A stretch of DNA of 54,795 nucleotides from Acidiferrobacteraceae bacterium (GTDB taxonomy: Bacteria > Pseudomonadota > Gammaproteobacteria > Acidiferrobacterales > SZUA-150). The number at the start of each line of letters is the position of its first letter. Position 1 is the stretch's first letter. Shown here piece after piece: positions 48,037-51,195 of this stretch. The stretch is taken from contig QIGL01000104.1 in assembly GCA_003228915.1 (NCBI GenBank), positions 1-54,795 on the forward strand, given 5' to 3'. The translations under genes were made by a program, and so were the position numbers. The notes beneath the pieces are model-generated. The model saw only the letters and a program-made list of their open reading frames with translations, did not search any database and was not told the DNA's origin.

Positions 48037-48100
48037 CATGCCCGAAAAACAATAAAGATTTAATGATCGATTTTTCGTGGTTATCTATTACAATCGGGCC

Positions 48101-48991
48101 ATGGATACAAAATCACTCGAGAATTACATCGGTAATACCCCCCTGGTACGCCTGAAACGGATACCAGGACAGTCCTCAAATTGCATACTTGCCAAGCTCG
48201 AAGGCAATAACCCGGCGGGCTCGGTCAAGGACCGGCCGGCCCTGAGCATGATTAAACATGCCCAGGAGCGGGGCGATATTAAACCTGGCGACACCCTTAT
48301 CGAGGCTACCAGTGGCAATACCGGCATTGCCCTGGCTATGGCGGCCGCCATGATGGGTTACAAAATGATACTGGTCATGCCTGACCACATGAGCATGGAA
48401 CGGCGCATAACCATGAAGGCATTCGGGGCCGAAATAATCCTGGTGACAAAAGAAGCCAGCATGGAAGGCGCCCGGGACCTGGCCCTGGAAATGGAAAAAA
48501 CAGGCAAGGGCAGGGTGCTGGACCAGTTTTCGAACCCGGATAACCCGCGGGCCCACTACGAAGGCACCGCCCCGGAAATATGGCATGACACCGAGGGCCG
48601 AATTACCCATTTTGTCAGCTCTATGGGCACTACCGGCACCATCATGGGCTGTGCAACCTACTTTCGGGAACAAAACCGGGAGGTTGAGGTGGTTGGCGTC
48701 CAGCCCACAGAAGGGTCAAGCATTCCGGGGATCCGTCGCTGGCCAGAAGCCTATTTACCGAAAATTTTCGACGCCTCAATCATTGATCGCATTATTGATG
48801 TCAACCAGGAAGAAGCCGAAGCAATGACCCGTCGCCTGGCCCGGGAAGAGGGCATTTTCTGTGGCACTTCTTCCGGTGGTGCCATCGCAGCCGCATTAAA
48901 ACTTTCACAAGAACTGGAAAATGCGATTATCGTCACCATTATTTGCGACCGTGGCGACCGTTATTTATCGACAGGGGTTTTTCCCGAGTAA
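48101..48991 (+). CDS. cysM: Cysteine synthase B (CysM)
   Basis: PLP enzyme that makes cysteine from O-acetylserine with sulfide or thiosulfate. ATG 48101 gives 296 residues starting MDTKSLENYIGNTPLVRL; an in-frame upstream start at 48077 would add eight atypical residues. PLP-lysine motif GSVKDRPAL with K43, EATSGNTGIALA loop, and GTSSGGAIAA. The shorter form with RRWPEAYLPKIFD identifies CysM rather than CysK. Alone between terminator and a 270-bp spacer. Confidence 0.95.
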   Translation: MDTKSLENYIGNTPLVRLKRIPGQSSNCILAKLEGNNPAGSVKDRPALSMIKHAQERGDIKPGDTLIEATSGNTGIALAMAAAMMGYKMILVMPDHMSMERRITMKAFGAEIILVTKEASMEGARDLALEMEKTGKGRVLDQFSNPDNPRAHYEGTAPEIWHDTEGRITHFVSSMGTTGTIMGCATYFREQNREVEVVGVQPTEGSSIPGIRRWPEAYLPKIFDASIIDRIIDVNQEEAEAMTRRLAREEGIFCGTSSGGAIAAALKLSQELENAIIVTIICDRGDRYLSTGVFPE

Positions 48992-49014
48992 CATAGTTCT
49001 TTTCCTTTTTTTAA

Positions 49015-49179
49015 TGTACATATCTGGCACCACAATCAAATGAAGGTTTATTCGAGAATGTCACTCTCGATGGCAAAATGAATTTTAAAAATGCCCTGGT
49101 CGAACAGTTCATTAACAAAAACACCACCCAGACACCAAAAGCAGTGATTGACATAACCGGGTCAAATATCAAATTCTGA
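49015..49179 (+). pseudogene. possible 3' gene remnant
   Basis: After an in-frame stop at 49012-49014, an open stretch of 54 codons ends at TGA 49177. It reads like a protein C-terminus (SNEGLFENVTLDGKMNFKNA... ending ITGSNIKF) but has no plausible start or ribosome-binding site. It may be the end of a decayed gene downstream of cysM. Weak support; random open sequence is the alternative. Confidence 0.25.
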
Positions 49180-49195
49180 TGCAGGCTTTATGTAG

Positions 49196-49220
49196 GTTGG
49201 GGTGAGGGACGAACCTCAAC
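49196..49220. repeat. short palindromic repeat GTTGGGGT...ACCTCAAC
   Basis: GTTGGGGT (49196-49203) pairs with ACCTCAAC (49213-49220) with one mismatch. The preceding TGTAGGTTGGG is a wording seen in dispersed intergenic repeats of many Gammaproteobacteria. Confidence 0.35.
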
Positions 49221-49261
49221 AAAACAAAAAAGGGATGTTATGTAGGGCTTGCAGGGCTCGT

Positions 49262-49858
49262 CTAAATATAATCTCTAAGTATTGTTTGCGCCCAGTCCGG
49301 TAATGCGTCAGGCAATGCCTTCAGTTGTTTTTGAAGTTGTCCGTTTTCCAGCAACGCCACGGATAAAAATGGTTGGCTGTGGGATGAATTATCATAAAAC
49401 TTTGCCTTATCAACCAGGGGCAGGGCTTCGCGAACGTATTGCATTGTTCTTGGAATACGATTAATAATTTTGTCGGTAGGAACATCGTGGCCACCGTGTT
49501 GCACACGTTGAGCTACCCGTGCTTGATTGAGCTCATCAGTTTGGAGATGGATATAGACAAGAATGATTTCATAACCAAGCGTTCTGGCTTCGGCTACGAA
49601 ATCGATTTTTGAGGGATGAGAGAAAACAGTTTCAAAACAAAAACTGTTGCCCGTGGACAATAATTCTGTGCGAAGTTTCCCGGCAAGAAAGGCCGCTTTA
49701 TAACTGGCTGCTTCTGATTGTTCAGAGTCCAGTTGTTTGGCCAGGATATCTGCATTCACTAGCGGTAAACCGGTCGGCGCCAGGAACTGCTCATAAAACG
49801 TGGATTTGCCTGACCCATTGCCTCCGGTTAATAACCAGAGCTGCTTTTTACTACTCAT
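49262..49858 (-). CDS. Zeta-toxin-family kinase
   Basis: The 198-residue protein has a Walker A motif GGNGSGKST (12-20, K18), VNADILA with D37, and the FETVFSHPSK segment, a zeta-toxin pattern for recognising the nucleotide sugar substrate. Known zeta toxins phosphorylate UDP-N-acetylglucosamine and block peptidoglycan synthesis. Its start overlaps the upstream antitoxin by four bases (ATGA). The pairing with a ParD-like protein rather than an epsilon antitoxin is noted under findings. Activity here is inferred. Confidence 0.85.
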   Translation of the reverse strand: MSSKKQLWLLTGGNGSGKSTFYEQFLAPTGLPLVNADILAKQLDSEQSEAASYKAAFLAGKLRTELLSTGNSFCFETVFSHPSKIDFVAEARTLGYEIILVYIHLQTDELNQARVAQRVQHGGHDVPTDKIINRIPRTMQYVREALPLVDKAKFYDNSSHSQPFLSVALLENGQLQKQLKALPDALPDWAQTILRDYI

Positions 49859-50247
49859 TCGGGCAAAAATGAGCCACCACTAAAATGTCCGGCACGGCGC
49901 GACCCATCTGGTTTCACTTGATCCAGTAGACCAGGATGACTTTTGCTTTTTTCGTAATACAGGGCACCCCGTGTAATCTGTTGCCCCAGCTTTTCGGTTG
50001 AGCTTGCCTTATCAACAGCCTCAAATATATCGTCTGAATTGACGGGATGTGATGCAGGAATTTGAATGTGTATTTGTGCAATACCCTGCATCAATGCCAG
50101 TATATCGGCAGGGGTAGCTAAATGAGCGACTTGCTTGCCCAACTTCGCCCAAAATTCAACTTGTTTGGCTGTGGAACGATTCAAAAGCGAACCCTCGGCC
50201 TCAGCCTCTTGAAAAAGATCATCACTTACTCTTAGCGGGGTAGACAT
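49855..50247 (-). CDS. ParD-like antitoxin
   Basis: The 130-residue protein matches the ParD-like (PF11903-type) antitoxin pattern: a short N-terminal stretch MSTPLRVSDDLFQEA, then LLNRSTAKQVEFWAKLGK with a ribbon-helix-helix-like start, and a downstream helical and glycine-rich tail. It is translated first (AAGGAG before ATG 50247) and overlaps the zeta gene, which is the usual antitoxin-toxin order. An operator-like palindrome lies in its promoter. Role: neutralise the zeta kinase and probably repress the operon. Confidence 0.82.
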   Translation of the reverse strand: MSTPLRVSDDLFQEAEAEGSLLNRSTAKQVEFWAKLGKQVAHLATPADILALMQGIAQIHIQIPASHPVNSDDIFEAVDKASSTEKLGQQITRGALYYEKSKSHPGLLDQVKPDGSRRAGHFSGGSFLPE

Positions 50248-50276
50248 AATCAGCTCCTTGTTACATTTGTATATAA

Positions 50277-50295
50277 TTGTAGCATTATGCTACAA
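50277..50295. promoter_or_regulatory. operator-like palindrome in the toxin-antitoxin promoter
   Basis: TTGTAGCAT-T-ATGCTACAA is a perfect 9-bp inverted repeat, 30-48 bases before the antitoxin start. On the minus strand TTGTAG can serve as -35 and TTATAT a little downstream as -10, so a bound repressor would block transcription. A further half site TGTAGCATG lies at about 50355-50363. Confidence 0.6.
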
Positions 50296-50406
50296 ACAAT
50301 CAAGACTCAGAATTGGCTGGATGTTGTTAGCACATTTATTGTATAAACCAGCCCTGTAGCATGTAAGCAGCCCAAATCCTTTTTATCAAAAGCTTAAATT
50401 AACACC

Positions 50407-51195
50407 ATGAATGTATTCGTATTTGATATTGAAACCGTACCCGATGTCGAAGCAGGACGCCGTATTTATGACCTGGGCGACCTGGGCGATGAAGACGTCG
50501 CCAAAATCATGTTCCAGAAAAGACGTGAACAAACCGGGGATTCTGATTTTCTGCGCCATCATTTACACAAGATCGTGGCGATCTCGGCGGTTTTCAGGCA
50601 GGGGGAGACTTTTAAGGTCTGGTCACTGGGAGAACTTGAGTCAAACGAGAAAGAACTGGTGCAGCGATTTTTTGACGGCGTAGATAAATACACACCGACC
50701 CTGGTGTCCTGGAATGGCGGTGGGTTTGATTTGCCGGTTTTGCAATACCGGGCCATGAAACACGGCGTTAACGCCGCAAGATACTGGGACATGGGTGAGG
50801 GTGATCGTGATTTTAAATGGAATAACTACATCAGCCGTTTTCACTGGCGCCATATTGATGTCATGGATGTGATTGCCGGGTTTCAGCCCAGGGCCTCGGC
50901 ACCCCTGGACCAGGTTGCCGTGATGTTGGGCCTGCCGGGAAAAATGGGTATTAGTGGCGCCGATGTCTGGGATCAATATGTCAACGGCAATCTTGTGGAT
51001 ATCAGGAACTACTGTGAAACGGACGTCTTGAATACCTATCTTGTTTACCTGCACTGGGAACTGACCCGGGGAAATTTTACCGAGGCAGGGTTGAAAAAAG
51101 AATTTGAACTGGTCAAAAAAAACCTGGGCGAAGCAAACAAACCTCACTTGAGTGAATTTCTTGATACCTGGAACAAAAATTCTGCAGATTTATAA
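50407..51195 (+). CDS. Predicted PolB-type 3'-5' exonuclease
   Basis: The 262-residue protein carries DnaQ/PolB-type exonuclease motifs: FDIETVPD at about 5-12 (catalytic DxE), VSWNGGGFDLPVL at about 99-111, and YCETDVLNTYLVYL near 200-215. The family (PF10108 type) is known from sequence and lies next to rlmD or related tRNA/rRNA methylase genes in many relatives. Substrate not known; repair or RNA processing are both possible. Confidence 0.85.
   Translation: MNVFVFDIETVPDVEAGRRIYDLGDLGDEDVAKIMFQKRREQTGDSDFLRHHLHKIVAISAVFRQGETFKVWSLGELESNEKELVQRFFDGVDKYTPTLVSWNGGGFDLPVLQYRAMKHGVNAARYWDMGEGDRDFKWNNYISRFHWRHIDVMDVIAGFQPRASAPLDQVAVMLGLPGKMGISGADVWDQYVNGNLVDIRNYCETDVLNTYLVYLHWELTRGNFTEAGLKKEFELVKKNLGEANKPHLSEFLDTWNKNSADL

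Follow-up and report, generated by a model that had tools for sequence, protein, structure and literature searches.

The window analysed here, a stretch of 54,795 nucleotides from an Acidiferrobacteraceae bacterium (contig QIGL01000104.1), contains two overlapping minus-strand genes, the putative antitoxin first and the putative toxin second, between cysM and a PolB-like exonuclease gene. The pair and the elements around it are as follows.

48077-48991: cysM, flanking the toxin-antitoxin pair
49262-49858, minus strand: gene for a zeta-type P-loop kinase, the putative toxin (198 aa; open reading frame and Pfam)
49855-49858, minus strand: ATGA overlap of 4 nt between antitoxin stop and toxin start (sequence)
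49855-50247, minus strand: putative antitoxin/autorepressor gene (130 aa; open reading frame and Pfam)
50125-50238, minus strand: ribbon-helix-helix part (PF11903 ParD_like) of the antitoxin, residues 4-41 (profile match)
50254-50259, minus strand: AAGGAG, probable ribosome-binding site of the antitoxin gene (read from the sequence)
50276-50303, minus strand: predicted sigma-70 promoter, TTGATT-16-TACAAT (consensus match, weak by itself)
50277-50295, no strand: predicted operator, a 19-bp palindrome with the conserved core GTAGC-N5-GCTAC at 50279-50293 (conservation)
50407-51195: PolB-like exonuclease gene, the other flank of the pair

A first interpretation made from the letters alone, referred to here as the sequence-only reading, had proposed that a zeta kinase and its upstream partner form a toxin-antitoxin pair. 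The two open reading frames are indeed present at this place on the minus strand, and family searches of both products, which pass their Pfam cut-offs, are consistent with the proposal: the toxin matches Zeta_toxin (37.5 bits; cut-off 22.3) and AAA_33 (41.8 bits; cut-off 27), and the partner matches PF11903 ParD_like (32.9 bits; cut-off 23). The four-base overlap is likewise as described, and this ATGA probably couples translation of the two genes. The host genome (2.66 Mb in 116 contigs) has a single PF11903 match and a single toxin match, and an antitoxin homologue resides immediately 5′ of the toxin gene in all 20 genome-contig relatives that include the toxin N-terminus (21 loci were returned, one of which, L022, is a toxin fragment only).

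The P-loop of the toxin is GGNGSGKS, at residues 12-19, and K18, D37, E76, R114, R118, R134 and R137 are invariant in an alignment of 21 toxin relatives; in the L026 toxin, alanine occupies the position equivalent to E76. Mutation of K15, D36 or R116 in Rv0366c of Mycobacterium tuberculosis abolished growth inhibition (PMC6362051). K15, D36 and R116 of the Rhodococcus sp. 008 toxin (L035) align with K18, D37 and R118 of the window toxin, the mapping to Rv0366c being drawn through L035, which has the same residue numbers. The structure model of the toxin (pLDDT 89.4) has PezT (2p5t) as its top Foldseek match (E 6.7e-9), and VIA-align gives Z scores of 15.9 for polynucleotide kinase, 15.0 for AvrRxo1, 14.9 for zeta and 14.7 for PezT, values so close together that the fold comparison neither separates zeta from polynucleotide kinase nor chooses a substrate. 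When solved structures are searched with the toxin sequence, dephospho-CoA kinases are the only matches up to E 0.01. PADLOC returns a weak mad3 match (2.1e-6) as well as matches to other P-loop ATPase models, and the neighbouring genes are housekeeping genes.

The description of the partner as ParD-like applies to one part of the protein. The PF11903 match, which denotes a ribbon-helix-helix part, is limited to residues 4-41 (profile positions 3-40 of 73), while residues 42-130 match no Pfam family. In an alignment of 20 antitoxins, most invariant positions are N-terminal, R6, R24, S25, Q29, E31, W33 and G37 among them, and a second invariant stretch, from S101 to F127, is C-terminal. A low-confidence single-chain model (pLDDT 60.9) places helices at residues 10-21 and 26-43, which may be the placement expected of a ribbon-helix-helix fold; because the model is poor, both this fold and the assignment of a neutralising C-terminal part rest on homology. 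A search of solved structures with the antitoxin profile gave no match up to E 1. By tblastn, no plasmid relatives of the antitoxin are found at 1e-5; a profile search does find remote ones.

PF11903 also occurs in short genes of other Gammaproteobacteria, most of them followed by a RelE/ParE-like open reading frame and some by one resembling methionine aminopeptidase, these partner names having been read from the sequences by eye rather than by family search. Given these different partners, the ribbon-helix-helix part seems to be a module common to different partners. At four loci (L066, L069, L070 and L072), a PF11903 gene is followed directly by an apparent methionine aminopeptidase gene and preceded by ATATATG-type palindromes.

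A canonical epsilon/zeta or PezAT system, with a kinase that phosphorylates UDP-N-acetylglucosamine, would account for the Zeta_toxin score and for the high rank of PezT and zeta in the fold comparisons. However, the Pfam search of the antitoxin matched PF11903 alone and no epsilon or PezA family. GTxR, described in PMC6362051 as the UNAG-binding motif, is missing from the relevant region of the window toxin, which carries TVFSHPSK at residues 77-84, and from all 37 ParD_like-partnered toxins. TVFSxxSK is present in 36 of these 37 and in only two of 21 toxin relatives with another partner or none; GTxR is missing from the 21 comparison toxins as well and therefore does not distinguish one set from the other. 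The TVFSxxSK loop suggests that the substrate is not one bound through GTxR. A canonical system is an unlikely description of the locus.

In the order, cysM, the exonuclease gene and rlmD lie side by side, and at four loci (L101, L102, L106 and L107) cysM adjoins the exonuclease gene with no room for a gene between them. At two others (L098 and L100), the spot that corresponds to 48992-50406 of the window holds a different open reading frame (384 and 375 aa), and at L099, L103, L104 and L105 no cysM lies within the stretch covered. Among the 12 exonuclease loci examined, from 16 matched genomes, the pair lies between these genes only in the window genome and in its congener. Since the spot is empty or otherwise filled in relatives, the preferred reading of the pair is a probable lineage-specific insertion in a variable spot. 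A viral origin was considered and rejected: eight stretches of viral contigs matched a pattern, and none was confirmed as a relative. Toxin matches occur in 4 of 50,697 phage records, and the one examined (L034) has a different partner. Elsewhere, at the ParD_like-zeta pair L117 (CM003352.1), the plasmid table lists the zeta gene, probably wrongly, as the resistance gene lmrC, and a Vibrio parahaemolyticus plasmid (L031, CP063527.1) encodes a zeta toxin 62% identical to a Rhodococcus one beside a different 179-aa protein without a Pfam match, conceivably a partner swap.

Comparison with the congener also bears on whether the toxin is still functional. It could be that the locus is a true family member whose toxin has decayed to a harmless kinase, with operator and antitoxin persisting by inertia. 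The toxin is indeed less like its counterpart in the congener (81% identity) than are the antitoxin (92%) or cysM and the exonuclease (97%), and decay of this sort does happen, as seen at L048 (G303), where stops break the zeta gene and the ParD_like antitoxin and operator remain intact. Against this stand the full length of the window toxin, the retention of all its catalytic positions and a dN/dS of about 0.14 (0.107/0.765); together with the value of about 0.07 for the antitoxin (0.040/0.568), this last figure indicates purifying selection on both proteins. Decay of the toxin is quite unlikely.

The palindrome upstream of the antitoxin gene, TTGTAGCATTATGCTACAA, is perfect over 19 bp, as the sequence-only reading had it. 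No second match with up to three mismatches exists in the window (0.05 are expected from shuffles), and an equal or better palindrome arises in 2 of 200 mononucleotide shuffles of the upstream region of the locus; conservation across loci excludes chance better than the shuffles do. Upstream of the antitoxin gene at 36 distinct ParD_like-zeta loci, GTAGC-N5-GCTAC is found exactly in 27, and the broader GTRGC-N5-GCYAC exactly in 31 and with at most one mismatch in 34. None of the 16 zeta relatives whose upstream partner is a different one has the broader site, and random 270-bp windows from the same loci contain it exactly in 15 of 6322 cases and with one mismatch in 119 (1.9%). When inward spacings of 0 to 12 are scanned, 31 loci show N=5, a single locus shows N=1, and no further spacing occurs. 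A second set of 12 plasmid loci includes 11 with ParD_like partners, of which 8 have the site exactly and all 11 have it with at most one mismatch; the twelfth, whose partner is not ParD_like, has no operator site. In the two sets pooled, the site is exact at 39 of 47 ParD_like-zeta loci and within one mismatch at 45. The two sets are not independent, in that the antitoxins of Rhodococcus loci L108, L109 and L110 cluster with those of L035, L026 and L033, and the corresponding counts are 19 and 23 of 24 clusters at 70% antitoxin identity and 6 and 8 of 9 clusters at 50%.

These counts exclude loci identical to another in antitoxin and upstream DNA (L001/L036, the window itself; L023, equal to L002; L038, equal to L003; L040, equal to L005), one locus without upstream DNA (L016), two toxin fragments (L022 and L064) and one locus without a toxin match (L024). 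Five loci without an upstream open reading frame of 60 aa (L047, L051, L053, L056 and L058) were kept out of the operator comparison and retained in the 21-locus motif comparison. At L015 and L046 the stretch searched holds no match, and the site listed for L033 is a weak, off-register match, a better one-mismatch site lying 27 bp 5′ of the first in-frame ATG. Hosts of the site include Nitrosomonas, Amphritea, Methylomonas, Rhodobacterales, Sphingomonadales, Rhizobiaceae and Rhodococcus, in some cases on plasmids, and two R. opacus loci (L026 and L109) have two operator sites in tandem. The exact GTAGC-N5-GCTAC site is found at 2 of 30 short PF11903 loci; at these two (L085 and L088), a RelE-like open reading frame follows the short PF11903 gene. 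In the window, a second half-site just upstream, ATGCTACAG, was dropped because no second arm faces it across the 5-base spacing.

It is very unlikely that the palindrome is mainly a feature of transcription or mRNA (a leader hairpin or a host-regulator site) rather than an antitoxin operator: a perfect inverted repeat is a potential hairpin as well, but the site precedes ParD_like-zeta pairs in unrelated hosts and plasmids (Gamma-, Beta- and Alphaproteobacteria and Rhodococcus) and is missing upstream of the 16 zeta genes with other partners, the GTAGC arms are conserved at a fixed 5-base spacing and the central bases are not, and the motif with its flanking T and A (TGTAGC-N5-GCTACA) occurs only once in the host genome, at the toxin-antitoxin locus, which speaks against a host regulator that acts at many places, a reversed control pattern also occurring once. 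GTRGC-N5-GCYAC is thus a well-supported prediction for the operator of a ribbon-helix-helix autorepressor. The operator role that the sequence-only reading assigned to the palindrome has gained, through the site at related loci, far stronger support than a single locus could give.

The position of the site relative to the predicted promoter suggests how repression might be achieved. The putative -10 hexamer, TACAAT, overlaps the right arm of the palindrome, which fills most of the -35/-10 spacer. Promoter-like pairs are roughly as common in this region as in shuffles (four found, 3.0 expected). TACAAT would make a good -10 and is present in 21 of 34 operator sites, but it is formed largely by the right arm, so that its conservation is indistinguishable from that of the operator. 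Enrichment of TTGACA is modest, with a mean of 2.1-2.4 of 6 matches at spacers of 16-17 as compared with 1.1-1.8 at spacers of 18-39. The centres of the GTAGC and GCTAC subsites lie 10 bp apart, approximately one helical turn. At such a spacing, two ribbon-helix-helix dimers could sit next to each other on the same face of the DNA, as in repressors of the Arc/MetJ/ParD type.

Very probably, then, the locus belongs to the ParD_like-zeta family, of the Rv0367c-Rv0366c kind, and is a type II toxin-antitoxin operon with an autorepressing antitoxin and a kinase toxin. N-terminal ribbon-helix-helix dimers of the antitoxin would bind the two subsites and cover the -10 element and the spacer, blocking transcription of both genes; on the simplest reading, the antitoxin, with or without the toxin, would hinder RNA polymerase sterically. 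The C-terminal part of the antitoxin would meanwhile keep the kinase inactive. On loss of the antitoxin, the kinase would phosphorylate a substrate, probably a small molecule or nucleotide, recognised without the canonical UNAG motif, and growth would stop.

The operator, apparently undescribed before, appears to be common to ParD_like-zeta modules across phyla; no description of one for this family was found in the open-access literature, a corpus that lacks most subscription journals, and what that literature holds for the family is toxicity and rescue data. The conserved site offers a direct and cheap way to test autoregulation in any family member and a marker for finding further ones. It also raises the question of why the operator has hardly changed when the repressor that would read it has. 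Conceivably, although this is less likely than not, ParD_like-zeta is one ancient family marked by three linked features, a PF11903 N-terminus, TVFSxxSK in place of GTxR and a single operator, the last kept across Gamma-, Beta- and Alphaproteobacteria and Actinomycetota while the antitoxins came to share only about 30% identity or less. If so, antitoxins of distant hosts and plasmids would read each other's operators, and foreign modules might silence an incoming module or derepress a resident one.

The sequence-only reading had presented the arrangement as a distinct one, and here it was anticipated: pairs of ParD_like and zeta appeared, with experimental tests, in papers of 2017-2019, with toxicity of the kinase and rescue by the partner shown for homologous pairs (PMC5728571, PMC6362051, PMC6504116). 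The pairing at the window locus is therefore not new. Rv0367c-Rv0366c is called a "non-canonical PezAT" (PMC6362051), and TASmania lists the same pair as A123.T70, finds it toxic and proposes ParD_like.Zeta_toxin as a possible new family (PMC6504116). For Mycobacterium sp. MHSD3, a 2017 report describes a zeta-like toxin that kills E. coli and a partner that rescues it (B5566_13855-B5566_13860; PMC5728571). The authors of the mycobacterial studies chose not to classify their homologues as ParD (PMC6362051, PMC5728571). The word "operator" is absent from the text of PMC6362051, as is the string "palindrom" from that of PMC5728571.

The window locus resembles Rv0367c-Rv0366c in having a short zeta-like kinase, preceded by a partner with a PF11903 N-terminus, that lacks GTxR and retains the lysine, aspartate and arginine needed for Rv0366c toxicity; it differs in phylum and in the extent of PF11903, which spans 65 of 129 residues in Rv0367c, as compared with residues 4-41 here. 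With the MHSD3 pair it shares an upstream PF11903 partner whose gene overlaps that of the toxin, in a different host (PMC5728571). Epsilon/zeta of pSM19035 and PezAT of S. pneumoniae likewise combine a zeta-type P-loop kinase with an upstream antitoxin (Z 14.7-14.9), whereas the window locus has a ribbon-helix-helix-type antitoxin N-terminus fused to the rest of the protein and a 198-aa toxin without GTxR. AvrRxo1:AvrRxo2 is also a zeta-like kinase with a partner (Z 15.0 over 186 residues), but AvrRxo1 is secreted as an effector, is longer at its N-terminus and has a different partner. The short PF11903 antitoxins of RelE/ParE-like toxins have a homologous ribbon-helix-helix part and, at L085 and L088, the same exact site; they differ in length (70-90 aa), in their apparently RelE-like partner and, at 28 of 30 loci, in having no exact site. 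Unlike in ParDE, the partner here is a P-loop kinase and not a ParE/RelE-like toxin. The pairing itself was known already, and what the window locus adds to it is the conservation of the predicted operator, in nearly identical form, in very distant bacteria.
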